64,000 nucleotides of DNA from a virus, in the IMG/VR virus record IMGVR_UViG_3300036841_000085, positions 1 through 64,000 of that record; one strand, written 5' to 3'. The notes under the pieces were generated by a model. The model worked only from the letters and a program-made list of their open reading frames with translations. It made no database searches and was not told the DNA's origin. The position numbers were made by a program, and so were the translations under genes. Shown here piece by piece: positions 718 to 52,297 of this stretch (within the stretch, counting starts at the first letter, position 1; each line of letters opens with the position of its first letter).

Positions 718-782
718 GTTAACGCACTTTAGCAAACTGTTAGCGACCAGTTACCCACCTGGACTGCTCCGTGTGATTTAAT
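718..782 (+). promoter_or_regulatory. Phased-box early promoter 1
   Basis: Boxes GTTAAC (718), TTTAGC (728), GTTAGC (739) and GTTACC (750) sit about one helical turn apart, followed by TGTGATTTAAT at 772-782. The position 18 nt upstream of TTTAAT has no -35 hexamer. It faces the gene at 833 and is one of ten such sites. Confidence 0.75.
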
Positions 783-832
783 TTAGGTGTCGGGCCGAAC
801 AAGACCCGCCAATTGAGACCAGGAGCAATCCA

Positions 833-1771
833 GTGACCACCACCGCCATCGAGCCCACCACCAGCCAGCGAGCCGCCATGAACGCCGCCTACCAGATCGG
901 CGTTCGCCAGAACCGCAAGTTCGAAGCCTCCGACGTGACCAGCAGCCCAGTGCTCACGCAGGCCGCCGTCGCCTTCGCCCAGACCTATCAGGGCGACTTC
1001 GAGTACATGGTCGAAATGCGGGCCGCCGCCAGCCTGGGCTTCTTGACCGCGAACCAGGCCAAGGGCGTCCTGAACTGCCTGATGGCAGAAGCCCGCCGCC
1101 GGATGAACGCCAAGGCCGCCAAGCCAGTAGTGACCGCCGCCCCGGTGGTCGCCGCCAGCACCGACTACGCCAGCGTCCAGAACGGCTTCTACACGGTGGT
1201 GTTCGACGCCGCCCACCCGGACGACCGAATCACCCTCCGCCTGGACAAATGGGAGGATTTCACCGACAAGCGCACCGGCGCGGCCCGCGACGACGTTCGC
1301 AGCGTGAAGTACCTGGCGGGCGCCGACAATGAGGCCGACTACATGTTCGCCGCCGCGATCGATGGCACCAGCGTCCTGTTCCGTGGCCGCTCCTGCGGCC
1401 CGCGAGTCGAGCGAGCCCTGGCCATCCTGGTCCAGAGCAGCGCAGCTGACCGAGCGGTGATGGGCGCCGCCTACGCCTTCCAGAGCAGCCGCTGCTGGCG
1501 CTGCAATCGCCTGCTGACGGTTGAGGATAGCGTGGCTGGCGGCATCGGCCCGAAGTGCGCCGCCAAGATCGGCGCGGCGTACGGCGCCGGGGCTGTCCAG
1601 GCGGCCAAGGAAGCCATGGCTCGCCTGCAGGCGGCCAAGGAGCCCACCACGACGGCGGCCGCTCCGGTGGCCGTCCCGGAGGCCCCGGAGAGCATGGCCA
1701 TCTTCGACCAGGACGGCAAGATGATCAACGAGCGCCGCTACCGCGAACTGTTCGGTGAGGATGCGGCGTAA
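833..1771 (+). CDS. DUF6011-like zinc-ribbon protein, 312 aa
   Basis: The clearest domain is near residues 221-245: CWRC followed by a Leu/Thr stretch and GGIGPKC, the pattern of DUF6011 small zinc domains in actinobacterial and phage proteins. An Ala-rich linker follows (about 255-285), then a short C-terminal block. The middle (about 110-210) looks like a compact mixed alpha/beta region I cannot name. The start is GTG at 833, preceded by AGGAGC, behind phased-box promoter 1. It is the first gene of the left early operon. No enzymatic role is evident. Confidence 0.8.
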   Translation: MTTTAIEPTTSQRAAMNAAYQIGVRQNRKFEASDVTSSPVLTQAAVAFAQTYQGDFEYMVEMRAAASLGFLTANQAKGVLNCLMAEARRRMNAKAAKPVVTAAPVVAASTDYASVQNGFYTVVFDAAHPDDRITLRLDKWEDFTDKRTGAARDDVRSVKYLAGADNEADYMFAAAIDGTSVLFRGRSCGPRVERALAILVQSSAADRAVMGAAYAFQSSRCWRCNRLLTVEDSVAGGIGPKCAAKIGAAYGAGAVQAAKEAMARLQAAKEPTTTAAAPVAVPEAPESMAIFDQDGKMINERRYRELFGEDAA

Positions 1772-1808
1772 GCCGCAGCCCGCCACCAACTGAGAGAGGA
1801 TTCGACCA

Positions 1809-1967
1809 ATGACCCGAGTGACCCAAGCGATGCTGGCAGTCTCCCTGCTGGCATTCACCCTGTCGCCCTTCCGGGCGATCGAGCCAGAGCCCATCCGGGT
1901 CAGTGGCCGAAACCACCCGCACCACCTGGTCGCCGGCGCCCGATTGCCGGCGGCACTCGACCTGTGA
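1809..1967 (+). CDS. Small protein with hydrophobic N-terminus, 52 aa
   Basis: The ATG at 1809 follows AGAGAGGA. Residues 6-19 are hydrophobic (AMLAVSLLAFTLS) after a short basic start, like a signal peptide or small membrane anchor, followed by a polar tail. The TGA stop at 1965-1967 is part of the TGTGATAAAAT promoter of the next unit. Function unknown. Confidence 0.5.
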   Translation: MTRVTQAMLAVSLLAFTLSPFRAIEPEPIRVSGRNHPHHLVAGARLPAALDL

Positions 1968-1973
1968 TAAAAT
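1944..1973 (+). promoter_or_regulatory. TTGCCG-N18-TAAAAT promoter
   Basis: TTGCCG at 1944-1949, an 18-nt spacer, and TAAAAT at 1968-1973 within TGTGATAAAAT. The upstream gene's stop codon is inside the element. AGGAGAAAC follows at about 1984. Confidence 0.65.
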
Positions 1974-1995
1974 CGACGACTGCAGGAGAAACGCG

Positions 1996-2061
1996 ATGAT
2001 ACAAGACAGCGACCCACCGACCTTCCGCCCGCCAACCAGGAGAAACCCATGGCACAACTAA
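1996..2061 (+). CDS. Possible 21-codon leader ORF
   Basis: A well-placed AGGAGAAAC precedes an ATG that opens a 21-codon frame ending 12 nt inside the next gene. The peptide is Pro/Arg-rich. The arrangement suggests translational coupling to the gene at 2049. A similar layout is seen upstream of the dUTPase gene (59001-59063). It could also be a fortuitous frame. Confidence 0.35.
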   Translation: MIQDSDPPTFRPPTRRNPWHN

Positions 2062-2249
2062 GCCCAACAGAGCGCCACCAGGTCGAACAAGCCCTGGGCG
2101 TGCTCGCCAGCGTCAGGAGCGACCTGCTCAACGTTGAAGAGACCCCGGCGTCTACCTTCCGCCACATCGACGCGGTCATCGACGAGATCCGCAAAGCAAC
2201 CAGCCTGGACGATGACCAGGCCGACTACCAGGACGACGAGCCCTTCTGA
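2049..2249 (+). CDS. Hypothetical small acidic protein, 66 aa
   Basis: A small helical protein with an acidic C-terminus (DDDQADYQDDEPF). AGGAGAAACCC lies just before the ATG. It overlaps the next gene by one base (TGATG), so it is translationally coupled to the zinc-ribbon protein that follows. Not recognised. Confidence 0.65.
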   Translation: MAQLSPTERHQVEQALGVLASVRSDLLNVEETPASTFRHIDAVIDEIRKATSLDDDQADYQDDEPF

Positions 2250-2620
2250 TGCTGCTCCACATACCCGACCTGACCGAGTCCAAGTCCTGGGCGTGCCCTG
2301 AATGCTCAGCGACCCAGGACGACGAGCCCGACACCGACACCATCTACGAGTGCGGCAACTGCGGCAACTCATTCTCCCGCGAGCAGAACGAAGGCACCAA
2401 CCTCTGCCCTGACTGCCGCCACCGCGCCGCCACCAGGGAAAAGGGACCTGTCTGCCCGGAGTGCGGCGGTGGCATCATGGAAGAGCAGACCTGCGACGGC
2501 TGCCCGGACTGTGACTGGAAGGGCGAGCCCGACGTGACCGACGCCCAGGCGTACCTCAAGCACTACCTGGAAGAGCACGCCGACGACATCGAAATCACAG
2601 AGGAAAAGGAAGATGCCTAG
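2249..2620 (+). CDS. Multi-zinc-ribbon protein, 123 aa
   Basis: Contains CxxC pairs at CPEC, CGNC, CPDC, CPEC and CPDC across residues 16-90, enough for two or three zinc ribbons, then an acidic helical tail. Proteins like this usually bind nucleic acid or protein partners, but nothing here shows which. It sits in the tightly packed left early operon and overlaps the next gene. Confidence 0.7.
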   Translation: MLLHIPDLTESKSWACPECSATQDDEPDTDTIYECGNCGNSFSREQNEGTNLCPDCRHRAATREKGPVCPECGGGIMEEQTCDGCPDCDWKGEPDVTDAQAYLKHYLEEHADDIEITEEKEDA

Positions 2621-2984
2621 CCAACGCGAAACAGCCACCAGGGTCTACCAGACCCTGCGTGGCGGAGCCCTGGCAGCCGACGCAGCCCCAGGCCAGTACA
2701 CGCCACTGCAGCGAGCCCTGGCGCACGCCCAGGCAGTCGGCGCGGCCAAGGTGCTGCTGGCGCTGTCGGTCGACGGCTCAGCCCACTGGCTGGCCACCGA
2801 GCACCAGGCCGTGGTCAGCCTGAAAGAACGGGTCGAGATCCAGCTGGCCGGCGTCGAACTCGCCCTGGCTGACATGCCACGAGAGGCATCTCCGGAGCCC
2901 ACCGGACGCGTCAAGCCCGGAACCCCTGAATATAGCTTGACGACGGCCAACACGCCAGGAGACGCTCCGGAGGGGCTCTCCTGA
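2613..2984 (+). CDS. Hypothetical protein with repeat-derived C-terminus, 123 aa
   Basis: Residues 1-89 form an Ala-rich, helical region of unknown function. Residues 90-123 (REASPEPTGR to APEGLS) are encoded by a dispersed palindromic element and are Pro/Gly-rich and probably disordered. The stop codon lies in the element's right arm and overlaps the next start (TGATG). The tail looks acquired rather than ancestral. Confidence 0.7.
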   Translation: MPSQRETATRVYQTLRGGALAADAAPGQYTPLQRALAHAQAVGAAKVLLALSVDGSAHWLATEHQAVVSLKERVEIQLAGVELALADMPREASPEPTGRVKPGTPEYSLTTANTPGDAPEGLS

Positions 2985-2993
2985 TGCCTCTCG
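2881..2993. repeat. Dispersed palindromic element, copy 1
   Basis: Outer arms GAGAGGCATC (2881-2890) and GATGCCTCTC (2984-2993) are exact inverted repeats. Inside them are TCCGGAGCCC and CTCCGGAGGGGCTC. It encodes the C-terminus of the 2613 gene and the start of the 2984 gene. Confidence 0.65.
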
Positions 2994-3421
2994 TCCAGAT
3001 CGACCACCTGGAGCCCGCCCAGGCCGAGACCACCGCCATGGCCATGCTGCGGGAAGCCAGCGCCGGCGCCCTGGAAGCAGCCAGCTTGCTGGCCACCCAC
3101 GACAAGGCCGGCTTCCACCAGGCTATGCAAGCGCTGGTCTCCAAGCTACACACCGTCAGCGAATATGGCAAGGTGGCTTTCCTGCGTCCAGACGTGACGC
3201 CCGAGTGGGTGGTGATGGCCTACATCCAGCACTACCCGGTCGGCTACTGGCACCCGCTGTTCACCGTCAGCCACGCGGCGATGGGTATCGACCCACGCAT
3301 CAGCGATGCCCAAATCATGACCGCCCTGACCCAGTTGACCAGCCAGGGCTACCTCAAAATGAGCCACCGTGGTGGTGGCCGAGCCCAGTATCAATGGCAA
3401 GGGAGAAAATATGCCAACTGA
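2984..3421 (+). CDS. Hypothetical protein with possible winged-helix end, 145 aa
   Basis: The N-terminal half is an Ala-rich helical region. The C-terminal part (about 95-145; DAQIMTALTQLTSQGYLKMSH, split by a GGGRAQYQW turn) reads like the recognition helix and wing of a winged-helix fold. That is a guess from pattern alone. ATG overlaps the upstream stop. The next gene starts inside its end. Confidence 0.65.
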   Translation: MPLVQIDHLEPAQAETTAMAMLREASAGALEAASLLATHDKAGFHQAMQALVSKLHTVSEYGKVAFLRPDVTPEWVVMAYIQHYPVGYWHPLFTVSHAAMGIDPRISDAQIMTALTQLTSQGYLKMSHRGGGRAQYQWQGRKYAN

Positions 3422-3911
3422 CCACGACGACTACCGCTCCGGCGAGTGCGCCGGCTGCGGCAACACCATCTGGGAGGGTCAGTTCTACCAGGACGACGCC
3501 GGCCAGCGCTACCATCTGCAGTGCCAGCCTGGGACCACGCCGCCGCCCGTCGAAATCACGGTCGAACAGCTGATGGGCATGGCATTCCCGGCGCCCATCA
3601 AGTGCGCCAACCATTGCGACCACGGCTGCGAGATCCCGCTGCAGCCGGGCGACAACTGGGTCAAGGTGGCGCTGGCCGAAGGCTGGACTGTCATGCGCTG
3701 GACCACCGACCACAACTCCATCGACCCTGGCCACAACGACCACGTTATGGCATTCTGCGACCCTGGCTGCGCCTACACCCACATGCGAGCCCGGATGCTG
3801 ATCGACGATCACTGGCGACCGCTACTCAGTCGGATGGACTGGGACGCCATGGCCAAGGGTGACGAGATCCTGGAAGCCCGCGAGCAGCACACCCACGAGC
3901 ATGGGCACTGA
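3411..3911 (+). CDS. Zinc-finger protein, LIM-like N-terminus, 166 aa
   Basis: Start chosen at the ATG after GGGAGAAAAT. Residues near 10-40 hold CAGC, then a spacer and YHLQC, like half of a LIM finger. Further Cys/His clusters (CANHCDHGC, CDPGC) suggest a second metal site. The C-terminal AREQHTHEHGH is His-rich. No enzymatic motif is visible. It overlaps both neighbours in the operon. Confidence 0.7.
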   Translation: MPTDHDDYRSGECAGCGNTIWEGQFYQDDAGQRYHLQCQPGTTPPPVEITVEQLMGMAFPAPIKCANHCDHGCEIPLQPGDNWVKVALAEGWTVMRWTTDHNSIDPGHNDHVMAFCDPGCAYTHMRARMLIDDHWRPLLSRMDWDAMAKGDEILEAREQHTHEHGH

Positions 3912-4071
3912 CCTGACGCCCGGTCAGCGCCTGGTCTGCCCCGTCTGCAACGCCGCCACCCTAATCAAGTGGCGGCCCAGGCGCCGCACCATACGCTGCC
4001 AGGGCTGCCAGGCCATCATCGCCATGCGTGCCAACGACGACGACCCCGGCCGCGCCGTGAAGATTAACTAA
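3901..4071 (+). CDS. Small zinc-ribbon protein, 56 aa
   Basis: CPVC and CQGC, 22 residues apart and separated by a basic strand (KWRPRRRTIRC), form a classic zinc ribbon. The ATG overlaps the 3' end of the upstream gene. It is the last gene before phased-box promoter 2; the first box begins in its final codons. Confidence 0.65.
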   Translation: MGTDLTPGQRLVCPVCNAATLIKWRPRRRTIRCQGCQAIIAMRANDDDPGRAVKIN

Positions 4072-4119
4072 TTCTTAACACCTGGCTAACCCGCGTTTAC
4101 CCATCCATGTGATTTACTT
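4063..4119 (+). promoter_or_regulatory. Phased-box early promoter 2
   Basis: ATTAAC (4063), CTTAAC (4074), GCTAAC (4085) and GTTTAC (4095), then TGTGATTTACT at 4109-4119. The box grid is shifted about one turn closer to the -10 than in most copies. The ATG at 4125 lies 5 nt past the -10. Confidence 0.7.
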
Positions 4120-4124
4120 TGGGT

Positions 4125-4352
4125 ATGGCAATCAACACCACCACCCGCAACCGAGTCGCCCAGGCCGCCGCTGGCCTGCCCACCCTCCAGGCTTGGATCG
4201 ACGCCGTCAGCGCAATCAGCCCGGAGGCCGCCCAAACCGTCGAAGGCATCTACTGCGGTCGCGATGGCCGGGGCTCGTTCGAGTTCGGCCCGAAGAACTA
4301 CATCGTGGTCGGCTGGCACGACGGCCGCGTCGAGTACTCGTATGTCAGCTGA
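4125..4352 (+). CDS. Hypothetical protein, 75 aa, probably leaderless
   Basis: The chosen ATG (MAINTTT) lies 5 nt downstream of the -10 element, where transcription should start, and no Shine-Dalgarno exists. The C-terminal half is strand-rich (FEFGPKNYIVVGWHDGRVEYSYV). Not recognised. Its stop overlaps the ATG of the next gene. Confidence 0.65.
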   Translation: MAINTTTRNRVAQAAAGLPTLQAWIDAVSAISPEAAQTVEGIYCGRDGRGSFEFGPKNYIVVGWHDGRVEYSYVS

Positions 4353-4551
4353 CCGCCTGGTCCATTGGAGCAGCACCCCGGCGGGTGCCTGCTCCCGTAA
4401 GGATTCCGGCCAGGACGCCCTGGTCGTGAGCCCGCAGATCACCTACCCTGGCGTGGCCGACTGGCCCGGTAACGTGACCTGCCCGACCTGCTGCCGCGTC
4501 ATCCGCCAGGAGCGCCGCGCCAGGAGACAGCCAAGTGTTAACGGTAGTTAA
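4342..4551 (+). CDS. Small Cys-containing protein, 69 aa
   Basis: Begins in the overlap TATGTCAGCTGA with the upstream gene. A CPTCC motif near residue 50 and a Cys and His near the N-terminus could bind one zinc. The last codons run into the first box of promoter 3. Function unknown. Confidence 0.55.
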   Translation: MSADRLVHWSSTPAGACSRKDSGQDALVVSPQITYPGVADWPGNVTCPTCCRVIRQERRARRQPSVNGS

Positions 4552-4601
4552 TCAGATGTTTACTGCCGTTTTACCACTCCAGGCCCACGGTGTGATTTAA
4601 T
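4537..4601 (+). promoter_or_regulatory. Phased-box early promoter 3
   Basis: GTTAAC (4537), GTTAAT (4547), GTTTAC (4558) and GTTTTACC (about 4569), then TGTGATTTAAT at 4591-4601. Box offsets of -54, -44, -33 and -22 match promoters 4, 8, 9 and 10. It drives the gene at 4621. Confidence 0.75.
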
Positions 4602-4620
4602 CGTAGATGGAAAGCGAGAC

Positions 4621-5040
4621 ATGATGACCACGAAGATCGCCAGCGACGGCACCATCCGCCTGGACCTGACCAAGCGCCAGACCACCGAGATTTGGTGCAG
4701 CGAGTACGACACCGCCTACGACCCAGGCTGCAGCGACGAGCACAACCTGCTGGCCGACCAACTCAAGGCCGGCACCGACCTGCCCAATCGCGGCCTGCGA
4801 GTGGCGCTCACGCCCGAGACCCTGCTCTACCTGGCAGAGAACATCCACTACCACATCGACCGCACGGCCAGCAACCTGGGCAGCACCAGCCCCAAGTACG
4901 ACTGGGACAACTGGTCTAGCCTGGGCGCTGACCTGGCCGCCCTAAAGGGGCTCGACCAGCGGGTCAAGCGCATGTGCCGCGAGCTTGGCCTGCGCTACAA
5001 GGTCTGGTCATTCACCAAAGGCATGCACTATGCCGACTAG
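4621..5040 (+). CDS. Hypothetical protein, 139 aa
   Basis: Follows promoter 3 with a short leader containing GAAAGCGAGAC. Residues 60-80 (RVALTPETLLYLAENIHYHID) suggest a helical core. No metal site or known motif. It ends in an overlap with the next ATG. Two adjacent ATGs open the frame; I kept the first. Confidence 0.7.
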   Translation: MMTTKIASDGTIRLDLTKRQTTEIWCSEYDTAYDPGCSDEHNLLADQLKAGTDLPNRGLRVALTPETLLYLAENIHYHIDRTASNLGSTSPKYDWDNWSSLGADLAALKGLDQRVKRMCRELGLRYKVWSFTKGMHYAD

Positions 5041-5362
5041 CTGGCACGAGACCGAGCTACCAGGACACTGGGAATCGGCCCACCACCGCGCCATCCGACG
5101 CAACATGGAGCAGGACATCATCCTGCTCCTGGTCTGGCGCAAGGATGACAAGCCGCTAGGCTCTGAGCACTTCTCTGTCATGCAGTCAGCCAAGAACGCC
5201 CTGGTGGGTCGCGAGTACTATGGCTTTGAGGTCTACCCGGCCGAGAGCGAGCTACGCGACCGAGCCAACGTCTACTGGATGCATGTTTGCCCCAGGCCGA
5301 ACGAAAAGCCGGACTGGGTGCGACCACAACGCAGGAGCGTAACCAATGGACTACCCAACTAA
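5030..5362 (+). CDS. Hypothetical protein, DUF7694-like, 110 aa
   Basis: The segment SVMQSAKNALVGREYYGFEV then YPAESEL and a terminal MHVCP resembles phage and actinobacterial proteins of the DUF7694 type, which have an unknown role. Start at the ATG overlapping the upstream stop. The family match is from memory and moderate. Confidence 0.65.
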   Translation: MPTSWHETELPGHWESAHHRAIRRNMEQDIILLLVWRKDDKPLGSEHFSVMQSAKNALVGREYYGFEVYPAESELRDRANVYWMHVCPRPNEKPDWVRPQRRSVTNGLPN

Positions 5363-5915
5363 CCTGACCAGGGCGACGGCCGAGAACATGCTGGACGACG
5401 CCCAGCCCGGCCAGTACGTCCTGGCCACCTTCCCAGGCCGCGTCTGGATTCACTCCATCCGCCTGGACGCCAAGCAGCTGCCCAGGACCTACTGCGGCGT
5501 GCCTATTGGCGTGATCGGCAAATGGTCCCAGCAAGGATTCGGCACGGCCGACCAGGTAACCTGCGTGACCTGCTCGTCCGGCATCGCCAAGACCGAGCAC
5601 GGCGAGTACATCAAGAGAGGCATTCCGGAGACCAAGGAAAGGCCATCTCGTCCTGCGGCGGTATGCTTCGCCGTCCTGGACGACAGACGTGTTCCGAGTG
5701 CCACCGGACGCCACGTGCCAAATGTGCTCAAGAGCAACTACCACGGCGAGCCAGTCTCGCCATTCTGCACCTGGTGCGGCGCCAGCCTGACCGACCAGGA
5801 GCAGGCCGACGCCCAGGCTACCCGAGCCCTAGACGACTCGACCGTCCTGGTCGTGCGTGACGGCGACGTGGTGGTGACCACCACCGGCGACACCGACGGT
5901 GTTAACGCTGATTAA
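5346..5915 (+). CDS. HCCC zinc-module protein, 189 aa
   Basis: Residues about 37-76 hold the module His, about 12 residues, TYCG, a spacer with Trp, then CVTC. The same arrangement recurs in five other places in this phage. A second CTWC lies near residue 141, and the C-terminus is acidic and strand-rich. The end reaches into the first box of promoter 4. No catalytic signature; probably a small adaptor or nucleic-acid-binding protein. Confidence 0.7.
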   Translation: MDYPTNLTRATAENMLDDAQPGQYVLATFPGRVWIHSIRLDAKQLPRTYCGVPIGVIGKWSQQGFGTADQVTCVTCSSGIAKTEHGEYIKRGIPETKERPSRPAAVCFAVLDDRRVPSATGRHVPNVLKSNYHGEPVSPFCTWCGASLTDQEQADAQATRALDDSTVLVVRDGDVVVTTTGDTDGVNAD

Positions 5916-5965
5916 TCAACTGTTTACAGCCAGGTAACCCACTCCCGCCTCCGGTCTGATTTACT
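5901..5965 (+). promoter_or_regulatory. Phased-box early promoter 4
   Basis: GTTAAC (5901), ATTAAT (5911), GTTTAC (5922) and GGTAAC (5933), then TCTGATTTACT at 5955-5965. The ATG of the next gene is 6 nt past the -10, so it is probably leaderless. Confidence 0.72.
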
Positions 5966-5971
5966 TACGTC

Positions 5972-6160
5972 ATGGCACAGCCCACCACCGCCGCTCAGAA
6001 GCCCTGCTTCTACGGCCACCCCACTCATGCGGCGGATTACCGCCTCACCTATCGGCTCGCCGGGGCGAGCACCAATACCAACTACTACCTGTGCGCGGAG
6101 CACCGCCCATCGTTCAGCCAGGACAACCTGGTCAAGGTCACGGCTCTTCGGAGCCGCTGA
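5972..6160 (+). CDS. Hypothetical small protein, 62 aa, probably leaderless
   Basis: ATG at the predicted transcription start of promoter 4. Cys and His residues (CFYGHPTH, then LCAEHRP) could form one CCHH-like zinc site. Not recognised. Confidence 0.6.
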   Translation: MAQPTTAAQKPCFYGHPTHAADYRLTYRLAGASTNTNYYLCAEHRPSFSQDNLVKVTALRSR

Positions 6161-6165
6161 CCCAC

Positions 6166-6195
6166 TTGTGGGCTGAGCGATCCGTCTGATAAACT
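6166..6195 (+). promoter_or_regulatory. TTGTGG-N18-TAAACT promoter
   Basis: TTGTGG at 6166-6171, 18 nt, TAAACT at 6190-6195 within TCTGATAAACT, then TAGGAGAAAC and ATG at 6215. Same geometry as 1944 and 7490. Confidence 0.68.
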
Positions 6196-7303: not shown

Positions 7304-7513
7304 ATGCCAGAGCCACACCCGCTCGTCCTGGCTGCCTGCCAACGCTGCGGCCTGGTCATCCACCTGTTCACGTCGAGTCCGCTAGTTGACCTGGGCTGGG
7401 CATTCAGCGAATGGTACGGCTGGCGCTGCCCGCCATGCATGGCACTGATCGACGACTCGCCGCCGCGTCACCCTCTCGGACGCCCACGCTTGCATCGCGG
7501 TACATCGATCTGA
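7304..7513 (+). CDS. Small zinc-ribbon protein, 69 aa
   Basis: CQRC and CPPC are separated by a hydrophobic, Trp-rich stretch, giving a four-Cys zinc site. Start chosen at MPEPHPL. The TGA stop is embedded in the next promoter (TCTGATAAACT). Function unknown. Confidence 0.6.
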   Translation: MPEPHPLVLAACQRCGLVIHLFTSSPLVDLGWAFSEWYGWRCPPCMALIDDSPPRHPLGRPRLHRGTSI

Positions 7514-7519
7514 TAAACT
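7490..7519 (+). promoter_or_regulatory. TTGCAT-N18-TAAACT promoter
   Basis: TTGCAT at 7490-7495, 18 nt, TAAACT at 7514-7519. The upstream stop codon lies inside TCTGATAAACT. It drives the HNH gene at 7535 with CCGGAGAAGC as a binding site. Confidence 0.65.
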
Positions 7520-7534: not shown

Positions 7535-8017
7535 ATGCTTTATCTTCCTTGCCACATCTGGACGGGTGACCACCTGGCCGCTGGCTACGGCCGCATCACC
7601 ATGCTTGACCCGGAGACAGGCAGACGCCGTCAATACCGCGTGTCCCACCTGATGGTGACCGAATGGTACGGCGTCGTACCCGACCTGGTCATGCATCTGT
7701 GCGACACGCCAGCTTGCTGGGAGCCCAGCCACCTACGATCAGCCACCGACGCCCAAAACACGGCCGACATGATCGCCAAGGGACGCTATCGCAACGGGCA
7801 ATCACTCAAGACGCACTGCCCGGCCGGCCACCCATACGACGAGCTAAACACCAGGCTGACCAGGACCGGTGGGCGGGCGTGCCGTGCCTGCGCCAGGGCT
7901 CGCCAGCACAACCGTACCCACCGAACTAGTCTTAATCAAGCGTTAACACCGAGTTATTCACTCGGTAACCGTCCGTGTGATTTAATTGTTGGTGGAAACG
8001 AGAGGAACACCCAATGA
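7535..8017 (+). CDS. HNH endonuclease (HNH_3 type), 160 aa
   Basis: CHIWTG, then RVSHLMVTEWYG and a His/Cys core (VMHLCDTPACWEPSHL) with SATDAQNTADM is the standard layout of phage HNH_3 nucleases, many of them homing enzymes. A four-Cys cluster follows. The frame continues past the expected end (about RQHN at residue 128) through promoter 5 and stops inside the next gene's start, which suggests loss of the original stop or a small frameshift. It has its own N18 promoter, as expected of a mobile gene. Confidence 0.85.
   Translation: MLYLPCHIWTGDHLAAGYGRITMLDPETGRRRQYRVSHLMVTEWYGVVPDLVMHLCDTPACWEPSHLRSATDAQNTADMIAKGRYRNGQSLKTHCPAGHPYDELNTRLTRTGGRACRACARARQHNRTHRTSLNQALTPSYSLGNRPCDLIVGGNERNTQ
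7931..7986 (+). promoter_or_regulatory. Phased-box early promoter 5
   Basis: CTTAAT (7931), GTTAAC (7942), GTTATT (7953) and GGTAAC (7964), then TGTGATTTAAT at 7976-7986. Boxes are on the same helical grid but one turn nearer to the -10. It lies inside the 3' part of the HNH frame. Confidence 0.7.
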
Positions 8018-9132
8018 CCACCACCAACCAGTCAGCAGCCGACATCAGTGCCGAAACGCTCGACATGCTGAAGAAGTTATACGACCGCAGCAAGCGCAGC
8101 GACAGCCACCTGGACACGCAGGCCGCCCGCGAGAGCGCCGAGCAGGAGGCCGCCCAGGCAGCCGAAATGCTCAGCCGACTGCTGGACAAGTACGGCCTGG
8201 CGCTGGCCGACGTAGACAGCAAGGGCAACAGCCACCAGATCAGCGCCGGTCACGTCCAGGAGCGCACCATCGATTTCGGCAAATCCAACTTCGCCTGGAA
8301 GATCGACCTGGCCAAGGCAGTGATCAAGCACAACAACTGCCAGATCCTCAAAGAGATCTACAGCCGCAACAAGATCAGTGGATTCGTCCTGGTCGGCCTG
8401 ACGCTGCACGTCGACGCCACCATGATGATGCTTGAATGGCTGTTCGCGCAGATCAAGGCCATCGCCAGCGCCGACTACAAGTCGTACAAGGCCGAGCACC
8501 CCAGCAAGTACGACCACATCGACCCGCTGCGCTGGCACACCAGCTTCGGCAAGGGCGCCGGCCAGCGCCTGGCATACCGCCTGCAAGAAATGCGGGACCA
8601 GCAAGCCGCCGCAGCCGCTGCCGCTGCCAGAGAAGCCAACGGCGAAGGCCCGGTGGTGACGCTGGCCGTCAACATTGGCACCGCCATCCGCGACTACCTG
8701 GAGACCAAGGAGCCCTGGCGCAAAGAGCGCCGAGAGGCCGACGAAGCCTGGACGCGCCGGCGCGACATGGCAGCCAAGCTGAACCGCATTCAGCCGCGTG
8801 CCTGGTCGGTCTGGCTGGCCTGGCAGCAGCCCATGGTGCAGCTGGCGATCCTGGCCGCGATGGGCCGCCAGATGGACACCGACGCCAAGGCTCGCGCCGA
8901 GCAGGAGAAGGAATGGGCGAAGGAGGATGCCAAGCGAGCCGCCTACCAGGAGCGCTACTACCGCACGCACGGCCACTATCCTGGCGAAGGCCGACGCCGT
9001 GGCCGCACGGTGGTCGACAACACTGACTACACCGCGTTTGACGCCGGCTATGACCGAGCGTCCGGGATCAACATGACGCCCTACCTCAATGAAGGTAGCA
9101 AGGGCACAGCGCCAGGAGCGCTGGGGGAGTAA
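8014..9132 (+). CDS. DUF2786-family protein, 372 aa
   Basis: Residues 10-75 (LDMLKKLYDRS, then AQAAEMLSRLLDKYGL) match the DUF2786 pattern found in phage and actinobacterial proteins. A middle section (about 85-200) resembles the region that often follows DUF2786, and residues 190-205 are Ala/Gln-rich. The C-terminus is Arg/Lys-rich with a likely coiled coil around 215-320. The function of DUF2786 is not established. Driven by promoter 5 through a leader with GGAAACGAGAGGAACACC. Confidence 0.8.
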   Translation: MTTTNQSAADISAETLDMLKKLYDRSKRSDSHLDTQAARESAEQEAAQAAEMLSRLLDKYGLALADVDSKGNSHQISAGHVQERTIDFGKSNFAWKIDLAKAVIKHNNCQILKEIYSRNKISGFVLVGLTLHVDATMMMLEWLFAQIKAIASADYKSYKAEHPSKYDHIDPLRWHTSFGKGAGQRLAYRLQEMRDQQAAAAAAAAREANGEGPVVTLAVNIGTAIRDYLETKEPWRKERREADEAWTRRRDMAAKLNRIQPRAWSVWLAWQQPMVQLAILAAMGRQMDTDAKARAEQEKEWAKEDAKRAAYQERYYRTHGHYPGEGRRRGRTVVDNTDYTAFDAGYDRASGINMTPYLNEGSKGTAPGALGE

Positions 9133-10183: not shown

Positions 10184-10213
10184 TTGCGCAGCGACGCGCC
10201 GGTGTGATAAAGT
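10184..10213 (+). promoter_or_regulatory. TTGCGC-N18-TAAAGT promoter
   Basis: TTGCGC at 10184-10189, 18 nt, TAAAGT at 10208-10213 within TGTGATAAAGT. A leader of about 50 nt containing a GCGGCAGACAGGCCGC hairpin precedes AGGAGAAAC and the ATG at 10268. Confidence 0.62.
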
Positions 10214-44238: not shown

Positions 44239-44244
44239 GATACC

Positions 44245-46396: not shown

Positions 46397-46915
46397 ATGA
46401 GCAGTCAACGGTACTTCCACGACTACCACGAGCGTAACAAGGAACGAATCAACGCTGCCAGGCGAGCACTGTATGCAGCTGACCCATCGCAACGTGCCGA
46501 ACATGCCAGGGTAATACACTGGCGCCTCAAGCTAGCAGCCATCCAAGCGCTGGGCGGGCGCTGCATCGGCTGCGGCGAGACAAACCCGCTGGTTCTGTCT
46601 ATCAACCATATCAACGGCACCGGTGTACCTCATGGCAAGCGACACGGACCGCTACACGCGCTGACCATATTCCGGGCCATCCGCGACGGCAAGATGGATA
46701 TGACCAGCATCGACCTGCGCTGCATGAACTGCCAGGTATTGTACGAGTACGAACGCGGCGTGCTGCGTCTGCCAGAGTCGGAAGAGCACGACGAGCTATG
46801 GGCATCTCTAGCGCCTGCGCTTCAAGGTGTTGCTGGGTGCCCAGCCTGCGGCAGCACCCGTCAGCAGAATGCCATGTCCTGGCTCAACGACAGGTTCGTA
46901 ATAAGCCATCAGTAG
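46397..46915 (+). CDS. HNH-like nuclease on opposite strand, 172 aa
   Basis: The basic N-terminal helix (YFHDYHERNKERINAARRAL) is followed by CIGC, LSINHING and LRCMNC, an HNH-type core with zinc cysteines, plus a CPAC near the end. It lies between terminase and portal but on the plus strand and overlaps the terminase 3' end by 108 bp. HNH proteins next to terminase can aid packaging, but the orientation points to a homing insert. Confidence 0.68.
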   Translation: MSSQRYFHDYHERNKERINAARRALYAADPSQRAEHARVIHWRLKLAAIQALGGRCIGCGETNPLVLSINHINGTGVPHGKRHGPLHALTIFRAIRDGKMDMTSIDLRCMNCQVLYEYERGVLRLPESEEHDELWASLAPALQGVAGCPACGSTRQQNAMSWLNDRFVISHQ

Positions 46916-48319
46916 CGCATCGGCATCGTCAGGACTGTGATGCAGCCGCTTGATAGTCTCGGCTTTCGACTCCACGTGAATCCTGTTGGCTGAGTCCCTA
47001 ACATATTTTGGCGAAGATAGTTCATGGCAGGTACGATCGTCCAGGCCGTCGAGACACCAGCCGGCGTCCAGGGTAAGCTCGCGGCCGATCTGCCACCACA
47101 TCTGGTCGCGCAGCTTGGGGAACCTGGACGGATCACTGCTAGACGAGCCAGCGTTGACACTGATCACCACCGCGTCGTGCTCGCCGGCAGAGCGTAGCTC
47201 GTCCAGGCGCGACCAGATGCCCCAGCCGACGCCGTTACTGTCCACCTTCACCCGCTTGGCACCGGTCTGCCTGATCGCCGTCAGCACCAGGTCGGTGGCT
47301 TCTTCTGCCCTGGGCGTCTGCGCTCCCCAGCGCCGGCCTACCTTGTGACCGCGCCGCTCCCTGATAGTCGTCAGGTCGCCGCCGGCGCCCACGTCCACGC
47401 CCAGGTCCACATCGCCGTCGTCGTCCCTGTCCTGGTGCTCGCAGCCCTGCATACACGCCCGTATGTTGGAAAGCGGCACCACGGAGCCAGGACTGTCCAG
47501 GGCGAAGCGACCGCGCACCTTGGACTGGTAGACGGCCGACTCGATACCTGCCTCTTCACGTAGCTCCCGCTCGTACTCCTTGCCGATCAACTGCTTGGAG
47601 ACTATCTCCGGCACCCACTCGCCGGTGAAGTTGGGTGATTCCAGGCCGTCTACGTGCACCGTGGCCCAGCCGCTGCCGGGTCGACACACCGTGGCGAAGT
47701 GACTATGCGGGAAGTCTGGATTACCGATGGCCAGGATACGTGACGAGTCGTTGGCTGCCAGCGAGCCCGCCGCGTCGAAGATCTCCTTGGGTACGCCGCC
47801 GGCTTCGTCAATGATGACCAGCACGTACGGCGCATGGATGCCCTGTAGGGCGGATGGGTCGTAGTCGCTGGGCTTCCGTCCCATGGCCACCATCTCGCCG
47901 TTGAGCCACCATTCGGTCTGATTAGTATGCCCACGCAGGCCGCCACGGTTGTGCGCCCGGTTGATCTCACGCCACAGGATGGCTCGCACCTGGGCCGCCG
48001 TGGGCGCCGTGGTCAGTACGAACGCTTCGCCGGCCGGGTGGGTCTCGATCCAGGCCGCTGCCAGACGACCGGCCAGGAACGACTTGCCTACCTCATGAGC
48101 GCTGGGTACCGCCGTGCGGCGATTATCCCACACCGTCTGCGCTATCTCGCGTTGCTTGGACCACAGGTGCTCGCCCAGCACATGCTCGATCCAGTCGGCC
48201 GGCGTCGATGCGTATGCCTGGCGGCCAAGTACCCGCTGGCGCTTGGCCTGCATTAGCGCCGCCGCTAAGGGCAGCGCTTCCAGGACGGCCGGGCTGGTCT
48301 TGGGCCGTGGCTGCGGCAC
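46808..48319 (-). CDS. terL: Terminase large subunit, 503 aa
   Basis: Packaging ATPase with PSAHEVGKS at about 72-80 (Walker A-like), VLVIIDEAGG with Asp171-Glu172 (Walker B), and a C-terminal RNase H-like nuclease starting LGVDVGAGGD (about 307-315) with KVDSNGVGWG further on. Length is normal. It overlaps the small-subunit gene. It pumps DNA through the portal and cuts the concatemer. Confidence 0.93.
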   Translation of the reverse strand: MPQPRPKTSPAVLEALPLAAALMQAKRQRVLGRQAYASTPADWIEHVLGEHLWSKQREIAQTVWDNRRTAVPSAHEVGKSFLAGRLAAAWIETHPAGEAFVLTTAPTAAQVRAILWREINRAHNRGGLRGHTNQTEWWLNGEMVAMGRKPSDYDPSALQGIHAPYVLVIIDEAGGVPKEIFDAAGSLAANDSSRILAIGNPDFPHSHFATVCRPGSGWATVHVDGLESPNFTGEWVPEIVSKQLIGKEYERELREEAGIESAVYQSKVRGRFALDSPGSVVPLSNIRACMQGCEHQDRDDDGDVDLGVDVGAGGDLTTIRERRGHKVGRRWGAQTPRAEEATDLVLTAIRQTGAKRVKVDSNGVGWGIWSRLDELRSAGEHDAVVISVNAGSSSSDPSRFPKLRDQMWWQIGRELTLDAGWCLDGLDDRTCHELSSPKYVRDSANRIHVESKAETIKRLHHSPDDADALLMAYYEPVVEPGHGILLTGAAAGWAPSNTLKRRR

Positions 48320-48816
48320 TACGACACCAGCTGGTCGCTGTGCCCGCTGGCGATATCCGCCGCCGTCTGCAGTAGCTCCTGCGGATCGAGCCCAAGCTGG
48401 GCTGCCAGATCCTTAGCTGCCTCCTGCGCTTTGAACGAGAAGTCCACCCGCTCGCGGTACTTGTCTGGCCGGTTGGCTTTCAGTAGGAAGATCAGCAGCG
48501 TGTCGCTGTACTCACGGATGAAGCCCACCCGAATGCCCGCCTGGTACACCGGCTTGAGATTACCGTGCCAAGCTCGCCTGACCGCCTCCTGCTCTAGCTG
48601 GTCAGCGAATGACTCCTTAGCCTGCTGCTCCCTGACGCAGAACTCGCCATCCTCCCGCCACAGGTACACCGTATTGGTGCTCACCTTGGCTGCCTTGGCA
48701 CCCGCTGTCAGCGTGCCGACCATGGACAATGCCCGCAAATACCGTACCTTTTTGCGCTCTATCTCGTCTATCTTGTCCTGGTCGGCACCTGGTCCTGGTG
48801 GCAGCGCTTGGGTCAC
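48319..48816 (-). CDS. terS: Terminase small subunit, 165 aa
   Basis: An N-terminal HTH-like section (GAKAAKVSTNTVYLWRED), then the block from EAVRRAWHGNLKPVYQAG to YSDTLLIFLLKANRPDKYR, diagnostic of this TerS group. It recognises viral DNA for packaging. The GTG at 48816 is preferred because it lies 6 nt downstream of a TTGACG-N18-TACGCT promoter (leaderless). A longer TTG start at 48852 would overlap the -35. Confidence 0.88.
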   Translation of the reverse strand: MTQALPPGPGADQDKIDEIERKKVRYLRALSMVGTLTAGAKAAKVSTNTVYLWREDGEFCVREQQAKESFADQLEQEAVRRAWHGNLKPVYQAGIRVGFIREYSDTLLIFLLKANRPDKYRERVDFSFKAQEAAKDLAAQLGLDPQELLQTAADIASGHSDQLVS

Positions 48817-48822
48817 CCTGGC

Positions 48823-48852
48823 AGCGTATCCGACGCCCAGGCGCGGCGTCAA
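48823..48852 (-). promoter_or_regulatory. TTGACG-N18-TACGCT late-operon promoter
   Basis: TTGACG, 18 nt, TACGCT within GATACGCT on the minus strand, 6 nt before the GTG of the small terminase. Near-identical to the element at 656. Confidence 0.7.
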
Positions 48853-48860
48853 GAGCCATT

Positions 48861-48926
48861 GTTAACTACTGTTAATAAACTGTTACCACCTACTTAGTCA
48901 CACGCGGCCATTCCATGTGATTTAAT
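48861..48926 (+). promoter_or_regulatory. Phased-box early promoter 6
   Basis: GTTAAC (48861), GTTAAT (48871), GTTACC (48882) and CTTAGT (48893), then TGTGATTTAAT at 48916-48926. Divergent from the late promoter; the boxes lie between the two start points. Confidence 0.75.
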
Positions 48927-48957
48927 TGTACCAACAAGCGAGAAACGAGACACACCA

Positions 48958-49557
48958 ATGACCACCCTCACCGCTACCACCCCGTTCGGCACCTTCACCC
49001 GCGACACGCACACCGCCTACACCCACGTCGCGATCTTCTCGGGCGACATCCGCCTGGTCGGATCGGCTGGCATCGCCGCCCGCCGCAAGGGACTGCCCAC
49101 CACGGTCGAGTTCGGCGCGGTCTGGAGCCGCAGCGAGCGCAACGCCCGCAAGGCCAAGATCGGCTACAGCCCCAATGCCAAGCTGGAAGGCGTCTTCCCG
49201 GTCGACGCCCTGGCGCCCGCCGTCGCCGCGATGTTCGTCGTCCCGGAGCCCACGCCCGAGCCGGAGCCCGAACCAGTCGTCGAGCAGACCCACGTCGAGT
49301 CGGTGCTGACCCGCGAAGAGGCACTCTGGATGATCAACACCAGCTACACCGCCCGACAGGTCGGCAAGAGCTACACGCACCAACTCAAGCACGACCGCAA
49401 AGACGAGACCCTGGCTCGCACCTACTGCGGCGTGCCGGTCAAGGGCGCCAGCCAGAACTGGCTCCGCACCAGCGACAGCCTCAGCTGCCCGACCTGCGTG
49501 GCGACCAAAGCCAAGCTCGCCCGCAAGAGCGCCAAGATCCTGGCGAAGGCGGCCTAA
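48958..49557 (+). CDS. HCCC zinc-module protein, paralogue A, 199 aa
   Basis: N-terminal domain starting TATTPFGTFTRDTHTAYTH, a Pro/Glu linker (about 95-110), and a C-terminal module: His, ARTYCGV, SQNW, then CPTC. The protein at 49684 has the same three-part layout, and the two promoters and leaders are nearly identical, so this is a local duplication. Function unknown. Confidence 0.78.
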   Translation: MTTLTATTPFGTFTRDTHTAYTHVAIFSGDIRLVGSAGIAARRKGLPTTVEFGAVWSRSERNARKAKIGYSPNAKLEGVFPVDALAPAVAAMFVVPEPTPEPEPEPVVEQTHVESVLTREEALWMINTSYTARQVGKSYTHQLKHDRKDETLARTYCGVPVKGASQNWLRTSDSLSCPTCVATKAKLARKSAKILAKAA

Positions 49558-49574
49558 CCAGCCGCCCGCCTGGG

Positions 49575-49651
49575 CCTAACTGAGTGCTAACGGTACCTAA
49601 TCAACTGTTAACACTCAGTTAGTCCCACGAGCCCATCCGATGTGATTTAAT
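49575..49651 (+). promoter_or_regulatory. Phased-box early promoter 7 (five boxes)
   Basis: CCTAAC (49575), GCTAAC (49586), CCTAAT (49596), GTTAAC (49607) and GTTAGT (49618), then TGTGATTTAAT at 49641-49651. The leader TTGTACCAACAAGCGAGAAA matches promoter 6 exactly. Confidence 0.78.
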
Positions 49652-49683
49652 TGTACCAACAAGCGAGAAACGGAACCCCACCA

Positions 49684-50514
49684 ATGACCAAGCCAATCCT
49701 CACCGCCCACACCGCCTACGGCACCTTCACCCGCCAGACCGACCGCCCGTACACCCACCTGGTGATCTTCCTCCCGGCCGAAGGCCAGGGCGAAGCCGAG
49801 CAGTGCTCCTGGCACCTGACCGAGTCGGCCGCGTTCGCGCAGAGCCGCAAACTGGCCAAGTTGAACAGCGACCGCAACCTGGTCCCCGGCCAGTACGCCG
49901 TGGCCGCAATCGAGCACCCGGCCCCCTCACAGGAAGTAGTGCCCAGCACTACCGTCATGGACACTGAGCCAGGCAGCCCAGCCGCCGCGCTCAAGGCCGA
50001 ACTCGCCGCCGCCAGCGAGACCGAGACCACCCCGGTTGACACGGAGACCACTCCGGAGCCCCAGGAGACCACGGAAGCCGTCGCCACGGCTGACGAGCCC
50101 ACCGACAACCTGAGCGACTACGTGACGCCCGGAGAGGTCCTGACGCGAGAAAATGCCGTGGGGCTGGTCGACACCGACTGGCTAGTGCGGCAGGTCGGCA
50201 AGGCGCTGACCCACAAGGTGAAGCTCGACAAGAAGGATCCCACCCTGGCACGGACGCTGTGCGGCGTGCCGGTCCACGGCGCCAGCCAGAACTGGCTCGC
50301 CATCCAGCCGGTCGACGGCCTGACCTGCCCCACCTGCCGAGCGGCCGCCGCCAAGGTCGCTCCGGCGACTACCCCGGCCGGCCAGGAGACCGTCACCGAC
50401 CAGGGCGGCGTCACCTGGGTACCAGTGGGCTGCGACCGCTGCGGCCGCACCGGGTTCGCCACCAACCGCAAGATGATGAACCACCGGGCGCAGTGCCGGG
50501 CGCTGGGCCGGTAA
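49684..50514 (+). CDS. HCCC zinc-module protein, paralogue B, with C-terminal C2H2-like finger, 276 aa
   Basis: Same N-terminal domain (TAHTAYGTFTRQTDRPYTH) and HCCC module (TLCGV, SQNW, CPTC) as the gene before it, joined by a longer Glu/Thr/Pro linker that includes a partial dispersed repeat (50041-50079). It adds a C-terminal CDRCGRTGFATN and HRAQC finger, suggesting nucleic-acid binding. Start at ATG 49684. Confidence 0.77.
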   Translation: MTKPILTAHTAYGTFTRQTDRPYTHLVIFLPAEGQGEAEQCSWHLTESAAFAQSRKLAKLNSDRNLVPGQYAVAAIEHPAPSQEVVPSTTVMDTEPGSPAAALKAELAAASETETTPVDTETTPEPQETTEAVATADEPTDNLSDYVTPGEVLTRENAVGLVDTDWLVRQVGKALTHKVKLDKKDPTLARTLCGVPVHGASQNWLAIQPVDGLTCPTCRAAAAKVAPATTPAGQETVTDQGGVTWVPVGCDRCGRTGFATNRKMMNHRAQCRALGR

Positions 50515-50516
50515 TC

Positions 50517-50750
50517 ATGCACACAATAGCAGTAGGATCGAGCGCCGGCTGGCACCTGGCCGGCTGCTCGTGCGGCTGGGTCGCCCCAGCGCCGCGCAAC
50601 TTGAAGGTGGTCGCCCAGGCCGACGCCGCCAAGCACCGTAACGACAACCTGGCCGTCGCAGACTGGCGGCCGACACCCTGCACCGAGCCCGACTGCCCGG
50701 TGTGCCAAGAGAACCACTCCGGAGCCCTTCCGGATGGCATCACCCGCTAG
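50517..50750 (+). CDS. Small Cys-rich protein, 77 aa
   Basis: ATG 2 nt after the upstream stop. CSCG near residue 20, CTEPDCPVC near 55, and a His between them could bind zinc. The last 12 residues (NHSGALPDGITR) are read from a dispersed element. Confidence 0.6.
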   Translation: MHTIAVGSSAGWHLAGCSCGWVAPAPRNLKVVAQADAAKHRNDNLAVADWRPTPCTEPDCPVCQENHSGALPDGITR

Positions 50751-50806
50751 CAAGCTACACTCAGCCGTCCGGAGGCAGAGGCCATCTCCTTGGCCTCCGG
50801 TGAAGT
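50716..50806. repeat. Dispersed palindromic element, copy 8
   Basis: CTCCGGAGCCCTTCCGGATG, then AGCCGTCCGGAGGCAGAGGC and CTTGGCCTCCGGTGAAG. The left half is shared with copy 7 and the right half with the copy at 62407. It spans a gene end and the intergenic gap. Confidence 0.75.
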
Positions 50807-50823
50807 CACGAAAGGACAATCCA

Positions 50824-51048
50824 GTGAAAGCAACCATCACCGCCTCCGATTTTCTCGTCATCCACGGCGGCACCTGGGTCGCAGAAGCCAGCGACCTGGG
50901 CTTCCCAGTCGGGCTGCCCATGCCCGCCAGCCTGGTCATTGACGGCCAGGACTACCGCTTCGCCGCCGCCCGCCGTGACCGCGACGGCGAAATCCAGGGC
51001 TGGCTGTACCGCCGTGACGATCAGATGGTGGTGATCTACAATGATTAA
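50824..51048 (+). CDS. Hypothetical small protein, 74 aa
   Basis: GTG start after GAAAGGAC. A strand-rich sequence (MPASLVIDGQDYRFAAARRD, then GWLYRRDDQMVVIYN). Boxes of promoter 8 start in its last codons. Not recognised. Confidence 0.62.
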   Translation: MKATITASDFLVIHGGTWVAEASDLGFPVGLPMPASLVIDGQDYRFAAARRDRDGEIQGWLYRRDDQMVVIYND

Positions 51049-51108
51049 CAAGATCTAACTGACCGTTAACACTCCCCTAACCACCGGGCGGCGCCCATGT
51101 GATTTAAT
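51044..51108 (+). promoter_or_regulatory. Phased-box early promoter 8
   Basis: ATTAAC (51044), TCTAAC (51054), GTTAAC (51065) and CCTAAC (51076), then TGTGATTTAAT at 51098-51108. Offsets -54, -44, -33 and -22. Confidence 0.77.
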
Positions 51109-51134
51109 AGTGGTGGAAGCGAGAGAACGGACCA

Positions 51135-51413
51135 ATGAGCAAGACCAACCGCACCAATGGCGCCCTGGGCGCCGCGCTCACCAACGGCACGCGCCGCCTG
51201 ATCAAGGATTTCCTCCGCCAGGAATGCTGCGGCCAGCCAATGCAGACCGGCTACGACGCGGTCACAGTCCACCACTTCGAAGGCACCACGTTCGAGAACG
51301 CCTACTATGCGATGTGCGACGTCTGCGGCAACGAAGAGACCGCCACCCACGACATGCTCAAGGAGCAGGTTCGCGACGAGATCCGCCGCAACAATGAGGC
51401 AGGCGTCTGGTGA
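51135..51413 (+). CDS. Small zinc protein, 92 aa
   Basis: CCGQ near residue 31 and CDVCGN near 59 fit a four-Cys zinc site spanning a strand-rich centre. The N-terminus is basic. Follows a leader with GTGGAAGCGAGAGAAC. Overlaps the next gene (GTGAGC). Confidence 0.62.
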   Translation: MSKTNRTNGALGAALTNGTRRLIKDFLRQECCGQPMQTGYDAVTVHHFEGTTFENAYYAMCDVCGNEETATHDMLKEQVRDEIRRNNEAGVW

Positions 51414-51715
51414 GCCAGGATCGACTCGACCACATGCTATATCACCAGCGCTCGCCGCGCCCGGACTGCCAGCAGTGCCGCGACCAGCGCCTGGGACTGC
51501 CCAGCTACTACGCCGACAAGGGCTTCTGCCCGTCCAGTGCCCAGCCCGCCACCAGCTACGAGCGAGCCGCCGGCAACGGCACCTGGGCTCGCACCACCTG
51601 CCCTGACTGCGGGCGCCGCGTCAACGTCAGCCGCGCCACCAAGGGCTGCCCTTGGAACCTGATCGCCCGCCACCAGCCGCTCAAGGCCAACCAGCCAAGT
51701 GCTAACGCATCCTAA
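51410..51715 (+). CDS. Zinc-ribbon protein, 101 aa
   Basis: CQQC and CPDCG, with a further Cys in CPWN, suggest a zinc ribbon in a basic protein. The start is GTG overlapping the upstream stop. The end runs into promoter 9. Unknown role. Confidence 0.6.
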   Translation: MSQDRLDHMLYHQRSPRPDCQQCRDQRLGLPSYYADKGFCPSSAQPATSYERAAGNGTWARTTCPDCGRRVNVSRATKGCPWNLIARHQPLKANQPSANAS

Positions 51716-51765
51716 CTAACCGTTAACACTCCCCTAACCACCGGGCGCCCTGGGCGTGATTTAAT
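51701..51765 (+). promoter_or_regulatory. Phased-box early promoter 9
   Basis: GCTAAC (51701), CCTAAC (51711), GTTAAC (51722) and CCTAAC (51733), then CGTGATTTAAT at 51755-51765. Sequence from GTTAAC through ACCACCGGGCG matches promoter 8. Confidence 0.76.
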
Positions 51766-51790
51766 AGTGGTGAAAGCGAGAAACAGACCG

Positions 51791-52012
51791 ATGAATCGAC
51801 CAGCCACCCGCCCGAGCAGCACCTGGGGCAAGTTCGCGACCAGCCAATGGAATCGAGCCCACGCCGGCGAGATCGCCATCGCCCGCAGCGACAGCCGCAC
51901 CACCAATCGCGTCCAGGAGCCCTGGATGGCCTACGAGTCCCAGGCGCCGGCCGAACTGACCGGCCTGGCTCGCCGCCGCTGGTGCCAGCAGCGCCTGGCG
52001 GAGGCCAACTGA
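51791..52012 (+). CDS. Small basic protein, 73 aa
   Basis: ATG after GAGAAACAGACCG. Arg-rich with Trp residues. The centre reads AGEIAIARSDSRTTN. Could bind nucleic acid, but no motif supports this. Overlaps the next gene (TGATG). Confidence 0.58.
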   Translation: MNRPATRPSSTWGKFATSQWNRAHAGEIAIARSDSRTTNRVQEPWMAYESQAPAELTGLARRRWCQQRLAEAN

Positions 52013-52215
52013 TGAACTACGCAGGACTGACCGCCGTCAACGCCCGCTCGAACCAGGCGCGAACCCGCCCGAGCTTCAACACCAGCCACCTGACCCGCGA
52101 CGGGCAGACCACCCTCTGCGGCCTGCAGGTCGCCCACGCCATCCGCCACCTATGCCGAGTCGAGCAGGCGTACTCCTGCCGCAACTGCCGGCGGGCGCTG
52201 GAGACAGGCCGCTAA
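52012..52215 (+). CDS. Minimal HCCC zinc-module protein, 67 aa
   Basis: This protein is essentially just the module: SHLTRDGQTTLCG, then SCRNC near the C-terminus. It gives the clearest view of the domain that recurs in four larger early proteins. Confidence 0.67.
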   Translation: MNYAGLTAVNARSNQARTRPSFNTSHLTRDGQTTLCGLQVAHAIRHLCRVEQAYSCRNCRRALETGR

Positions 52216-52232
52216 GCATGAACCAGGGGAGT

Positions 52233-52297
52233 ATTAACAGATCGCAACCAACTGTTAACACTCCCCTAACCATCGCGATGCCTCCGTGTGATTTAAT
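52233..52297 (+). promoter_or_regulatory. Phased-box early promoter 10
   Basis: ATTAAC (52233), CGCAAC (52243), GTTAAC (52254) and CCTAAC (52265), then TGTGATTTAAT at 52287-52297. Same offsets as promoters 8 and 9. Confidence 0.75.

Follow-up and report, generated by a model that had tools for sequence, protein, structure and literature searches.

Which protein, viral or host, reads a set of viral promoters that carry helically phased arrays of a five-base box and lack a -35 element? The promoters lie in a 64,000-nt stretch with a G+C content of 64% (G000:C1:1-64000; hereafter the window), which covers positions 1 to 64,000 of the 65,581-bp uncultivated virus record IMGVR_UViG_3300036841_000085. 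The initial annotation had described ten plus-strand promoters there, each with four or five TTAAC-type boxes 10 to 11 bp apart, a single downstream -10 and no -35, and had suggested a multimeric activator of the PhoB/OmpR type bound along one face of the helix. Comparison with native bacterial promoters leads us to favor this suggestion: the ten sites probably form one class of activator-dependent promoters bound by a regulator of the OmpR/PhoB family that the host supplies.

All ten sites are present and stand clear of chance. On a combined box and -10 score they reach 19.5 to 21.0, whereas no other site in the window exceeds 15.9 and ten block shuffles yielded at most 17.7. When the 65.6-kb record was scanned with a four-box pattern allowing up to 3 mismatches, 8 sites were recovered, none of them on the minus strand, compared to 0 with the reversed control; within the window, the minus strand contains no such array, and the plus strand has 17 TTAAC words, 13 of which fall inside the ten 75-nt promoter stretches. 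Relative to the first T of the -10 element TGATTTA(A/C)T, the boxes start at -56/-55, -46/-45, -35/-34, and -24/-23, with extra boxes at -13 in promoters 4110 and 7978 and at -67 in promoter 49643 (promoters are named here by the first position of their -10). Successive boxes are separated by steps of 10, 11, and 11 bp (11 bp throughout at 4110), and their phasing is strong at periods of 10.5 to 11 bp (resultant, 0.85 to 0.87, versus 0.06 to 0.23 at 7 to 9 and 13 to 14 bp). The profile of 42 boxes reads T/C-T-A-A-C, with a TAAC core in which T is found in 40/42, the first A in 39/42, the second A in 34/42, and C in 34/42; these four positions carry 1.0 to 1.7 bits each, compared to roughly 0.1 to 0.5 bits around them. 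The single -10 sequence that had been described holds for most of the class, with an exact TGTGATTTAAT in 7 of 10 promoters, and fails for the remainder, which have TGATTTACT in two cases and GCGTGATTTAAT at 51757. The absence of a -35 was borne out, as a TTG at a spacing of 16 to 19 bp occurs in 0 of the 10 promoters.

Pairwise identity across the ten promoters is 74% in the boxes, 40% in the spacers between them, 33% in the upstream flanks, and 30% in the downstream sequence. Because the boxes are conserved while spacers and flanks are not, it is selection, rather than recent copying, that maintains the boxes. Recent promoter duplication was accordingly rejected as the cause of the similarity, the flanks and spacers being only 30 to 42% identical.

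The same virus provides internal controls in a second, box-less promoter class of the form TTGNNN-N18-TGATAAANT. On the plus strand, TTGCCG, TTGTGG, TTGCAT, and TTGCGC each precede the hexamer of TGATAAA(A/C/G)T by 18 bp (1944..1973, TTGCCG-N18-TGATAAAAT, which has no boxes; 6166-6195; 7490-7519; and 10184-10213). Two divergent minus-strand promoters border the box promoters, one at 656..685 (-), TTGACG-N18 TGATACGCT, pointing away from the first of them, and one starting at 48852 (-), TTGACG-N18-TACGCT, adjoining the sixth. Because the virus also has promoters with a -35, its absence is a property of the box class. The spacer of this TTGNNN plus (TG)TANNNT class is unusually constant at 18 bp, and further minus-strand members occur at 59117, 31832, and 54634. 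Two of the box promoters provide a check on the -10 assignment itself: at both 4110 and 5957, TTTACT is followed by six bases and an ATG (4125 and 5972, respectively), which places the start codon at the predicted +1. The genes at 4125 and 5972 are therefore predicted to yield leaderless transcripts, and the position of their ATGs independently supports the -10 assignment.

Evidence on the nature of the binder comes from native actinobacterial promoters. Across 396 Actinomycetota genomes, the viral four-box pattern matched about as often as its reversed control, and the informative matches were those located before pstS-like genes (L218, L223, and L226) and ammonium transporter genes (L227 and L228). 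The amt promoters were then fetched directly, and four more arrays were recognized by their boxes alone; in these promoters, which come from other genomes than the arrays described next, boxes lie at -48, -37, -26, and usually also -15 (n = 6), and the distance from the start of one of the boxes to a TANNNT is exactly 26 bp in 6/6. Through the pstS promoters we reached one Actinomycetota order (G+C content, 0.60 to 0.70) in which the array TTAAC-N6-TTARC-N6-TTTAC-N6-GMAAC is present in 36 of 39 genomes, compared to 0 matches for its reversed control. In all 27 arrays of this order that were read, which, being related sequences, do not count as independent events, a TANNNT (mostly TATCAT) follows exactly 59 bp after the first box, with boxes at -59, -48, -37, and -26 from the -10. 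The arrays of this order, that of G021, are very uniform, with 26 bp from the last box to the TATCAT (e.g., L261, L263, and L278-L320). The genes that follow encode PstS, PhoU_div, and Metallophos (metallophosphatase) proteins, by which we identify the array as the PHO box of that order.

Counted in the same way, the viral boxes lie at -58, -48, -37, and -26 in six promoters and at -59, -49, -38, and -27 in two, and promoters 4110 and 7978 have boxes at -49, -38, -27, and -16; leaving aside the extra boxes at -16, the box nearest the -10 is 26 or 27 bp before it in 10/10 viral promoters. The variant viral half-sites also recur in native sites, namely TTAGC (774), TTAAT (4593, 5957, 7978, and 48918), TTTAC (4593 and 5957), GTAAC (5957 and 7978), and GCAAC (52289). 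The viral promoters thus share with the PHO-box (PhoB/PhoP) and GlnR/MtrA promoters of Actinomycetota a vocabulary of 5-bp half-sites, usually four to an array, a head-to-tail step of 11 bp, and a fixed distance of about 26 bp from the last box to the -10, without a -35. Published half-sites agree with the viral boxes and lend further support to a binder of this family: those of MtrA in Streptomyces coelicolor are [GT]T[GA]ACC-N5-GT[GT]AC (PMC5650626), those of GlnR are t/gTAAC-n6-Gc/aAAC in Mycobacterium smegmatis and GTnAC-n6-GTnAC in Streptomyces venezuelae (PMC10704036), and PHO boxes, which differ among species, are built from at least two direct repeats of 11 nt (PMC4415409).

The ten sites would then be activator-dependent promoters for the housekeeping sigma factor, with TGATTTAMT as an extended -10 and without a -35. 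Their four or five half-sites, all on one DNA face, would be bound head-to-tail by a winged-helix OmpR/PhoB-family regulator, for which a PhoP-type protein or its relatives GlnR and MtrA are candidates. The -10-proximal box occupies the place of the -35, from which the bound oligomer could recruit RNA polymerase through contacts with sigma region 4 and alpha, in the manner of GlnR and PhoB; the activation complex of GlnR has four DNA-binding domains arranged head-to-tail (PMC10704036). Trans_reg_C (PF00486) had no match at an E value of ≤10 in the 65,581-bp record, which may be incomplete, and as the virus has no recognized OmpR-type domain, a regulator of this family would have to be the host's; such a host protein is the best candidate for the binder.

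That host is likely an actinobacterium, on the strength of the viral lysozyme and terminase. The lysozyme (55515-55985, minus strand) has an Rpf-type transglycosylase domain that matches 159 phage records, all except four of which infect Mycobacterium, Rhodococcus, or Streptomyces; among named phage records, the matches are to actinophages only. The best terminase relatives in genomes are located in Streptomyces, Nonomuraea, and other actinobacterial loci, and another terminase relative is found in an alphaproteobacterial metagenome-assembled genome (MAG; L167). We infer both the host and the identity of the binder.

Several observations weigh against a PHO-box or GlnR-type assignment. Native arrays begin with an 11-bp step, most viral promoters with one of 10 bp; the -10-proximal box is YTAAC-like in the virus and GMAAC in native arrays; and native -10s lack the extended TG form. 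In the order whose arrays are closest, no terminase relative turned up. Further, chromosomal PHO-box and GlnR promoters do not occur as ten viral copies before genes without a phosphate or nitrogen function, and nutrient-gated control of ten such genes would be odd. Regulon content defines a regulon and not a site, however, so that this last mismatch concerns the regulon.

Among the alternatives, the one that survives best, though we consider it unlikely, is that the activator is a viral protein of 68 amino acids (60292..60498, minus strand) of the HTH_17 family, which would bind as a BldC- or Xis-like monomer to each box, polymerize head-to-tail, and recruit RNA polymerase. It is the only virus-encoded candidate for a direct-repeat binder that we identified, and it is assigned to HTH_17 (E value of 1.3e-13) and to the excisionase family (E value of 1.2e-13). 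Sequence comparison with the PDB returned BldC-DNA complexes as the only matches, and a single-sequence structural model (pLDDT 86) is nearest to Pukovnik Xis and BldC. BldC forms a head-to-tail oligomer on two to four direct repeats and can activate transcription (PMC6428758), and one monomer per box would fit the odd number of boxes, five, at 49643. An integrase search that covered the tyrosine but not the serine type returned no gene, which makes an excisionase role for the protein less likely. HTH_17 operators resemble the viral arrays in presenting at least two direct repeats to a head-to-tail oligomer (PMC6428758, PMC11963761), and the viral step of 10 to 11 bp is compatible with one helical turn. 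The published BldC site, however, is a loose, AT-rich AATT(N3-4)(C/G) repeated at 9-bp or one-turn steps (PMC6428758), whereas the viral TAAC core is conserved and held in a fixed -10 register. In both sequence and register, the viral arrays agree with native OmpR-type promoters down to single base pairs. If the HTH_17 protein were nevertheless the activator, it would be a BldC-type transcription activator encoded by a phage.

More doubtful still is a binder that is some other viral DNA-binding protein without a recognizable domain, the likeness to PHO boxes being convergent. Phages often encode their own activators of middle genes, and most of the proteins whose genes surround the box promoters lack a family assignment, but such convergence would require a coincidence in the half-site variants, in the 11-bp step, and in the distance to the -10.

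It is very unlikely that the boxes are operators that repress or silence the ten promoters, for instance by conveying a starvation signal that restrains the virus, as Spo0A does with phi29 (as cited in PMC9437464). The arrays do adjoin the divergent TTGACG promoters at 685 (-) and 48852 (-). OmpR-family regulators also act as repressors. MtrA and bldD provide an example (PMC5650626). Against repression, the ten promoters have no -35 and a -10 of TTTAAT, not TAAANT, and should be weak without an activator, and their register is that of pstS and amt promoters, which are activated in known systems. We infer activation rather than repression, and likewise the timing, the downstream genes being presumably early ones as first annotated. 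The least probable reading, a CtrA-box phage of an alphaproteobacterium, can draw on the identity of TTAAC-N6-TTAAC with the CtrA site TTAA-N7-TTAA, on proven CtrA control of phage genes (PMC9437464), and on the terminase relative in the alphaproteobacterial MAG, but was rejected on the host evidence of the Rpf-type lysozyme and the best terminase relatives, alongside viral promoters of the TTGNNN-N18-TANNNT form with predicted leaderless genes.

The CtrA-controlled phages of Alphaproteobacteria are nonetheless the closest biological precedent for promoters read by a host OmpR/PhoB-family regulator. In vB_BsubS-Delta and phiCbK, promoters are likewise loaded with TTAA-N7-TTAA sites for such a regulator, with the sites clustered in one gap or in a terminal repeat and with a host that has CtrA (PMC9437464); here, in contrast, there are ten separate promoters in a strict -10 register, and the host is probably actinobacterial. 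In the cyanophages S-PM2d and P-SSM2, boxes of the form (Py)TTAA(Py)(Py)(T/A) place phage genes under the control of host PhoB, but these boxes concern few genes, are loose and poorly predictive, and form no uniform four-box class (PMC10976474). Host-regulator boxes on phage promoters are thus known, and a uniform class of ten such promoters in a probable actinophage is probably new. We found no literature precedent for phage middle promoters with direct repeats, or for the use of MtrA or GlnR by actinophages, in a limited search in which absence proves little. Tentatively, the virus may have placed the genes of this ten-promoter class in the phosphate or nitrogen starvation regulon of its host by means of a four-site OmpR-family switch, which would be an independently evolved, actinobacterial counterpart of CtrA-controlled phages. 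A host signaling protein that is given a whole class of phage promoters has rarely been documented. If the sites are of the PHO or GlnR type, the nutrient state of the host would decide whether ten viral genes are read, and the ten uniform promoters would be well suited to studying the recruitment of RNA polymerase by OmpR-family oligomers.

The ten box promoters all lie on the plus strand of the window. Promoter 1 (718..782) has boxes at 719, 729, 740, and 751 (TTAAC, TTAGC, TTAGC, and TTACC) and a -10, TGATTTAAT, at 774-782, upstream of a gene for a DUF6011 protein (833-1771). In promoter 2 (4063..4118), the boxes (4064, 4075, 4086, and 4097) have moved one step downstream toward a -10 of TGATTTACT at 4110-4118. 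Promoter 3 (4537..4601; boxes at 4538, 4548, 4559, and 4570; -10 at 4593-4601) precedes a gene at 4624-5040, and promoter 4 (5901..5965; boxes at 5902, 5912, 5923, and 5934) again has TGATTTACT as its -10, at 5957-5965; the predicted leaderless genes described above belong to promoters 2 and 4. Promoter 5 (7931..7986) has boxes at 7932, 7943, 7954, and 7965 with a weak fifth at 7922, a -10 at 7978-7986, and a gene at 8014-9132. Promoter 6 (48861..48926; boxes at 48862, 48872, 48883, and 48894; -10 at 48918-48926) and the five-box promoter 7 (49575..49651; boxes at 49576, 49587, 49597, 49608, and 49619; -10 at 49643-49651) serve adjacent paralogous genes (48958-49557 and 49684-50514, respectively), each of which has its own box promoter and which share a common leader, TTGTACCAACAAGCGAGAAACG. 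Promoters 8 (51044..51108; boxes at 51045, 51055, 51066, and 51077; -10 at 51100-51108), 9 (51701..51765; boxes at 51702, 51712, 51723, and 51734; -10 at 51757-51765), and 10 (52233..52297; boxes at 52234, 52244 [GCAAC], 52255, and 52266; -10 at 52289-52297) precede genes at 51135-51413, 51791-52012, and 52323-52610, respectively. The genes downstream of the ten promoters encode DUF6011 and DUF7168 proteins and others without a family.

Searches for the same arrays in other viruses were negative. Neither the phage collection nor the IMG/VR loci yielded a near relative of the virus, and the terminase relatives, including the closest (L011/G003, 55%), have neither the boxes nor TGATTTAAT. Viral contigs searched with the protein of one box-promoter gene and with a PurZ-like protein of the virus yielded no relatives, and a DUF932 protein matched a single distant locus among them. 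A loose three-box motif scan of viral contigs gave only chance matches, in AT-rich contigs, and a tighter pattern, GTTAACAC...TGTGATTTAAT, gave zero. Some 1.2 Mb of relatives contained no such arrays, and the other high-G+C loci that were fetched contained no comparable array except one TAACGTTAC tandem in the alphaproteobacterial MAG. The closest terminase relative, G003 (L011 and L209-L212), contains a CCTGAGAGGAGC-like word in about 20 copies, perhaps a sequence associated with starts.

Neither a tRNA gene nor an Rfam match was found in the window. The PurZ-like protein is encoded at 59094-60278 (minus strand) and is a relative of adenylosuccinate synthetase (phrog_1211, E value of 4e-62; NCBIfam PurZ, 209 bits, below the cutoff of 300). 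Near it are a nucleoside deoxyribosyltransferase-like gene (56318-56854), a dUTPase gene (58525-59001), and a weak match to DUF1599; these genes suggest that the virus possibly synthesizes 2-aminoadenine or some other modified base. Finally, the palindrome CTCCGGAG is overrepresented in the window, with 16 counts over both strands compared to 1.25 expected, and possibly forms terminator stems.

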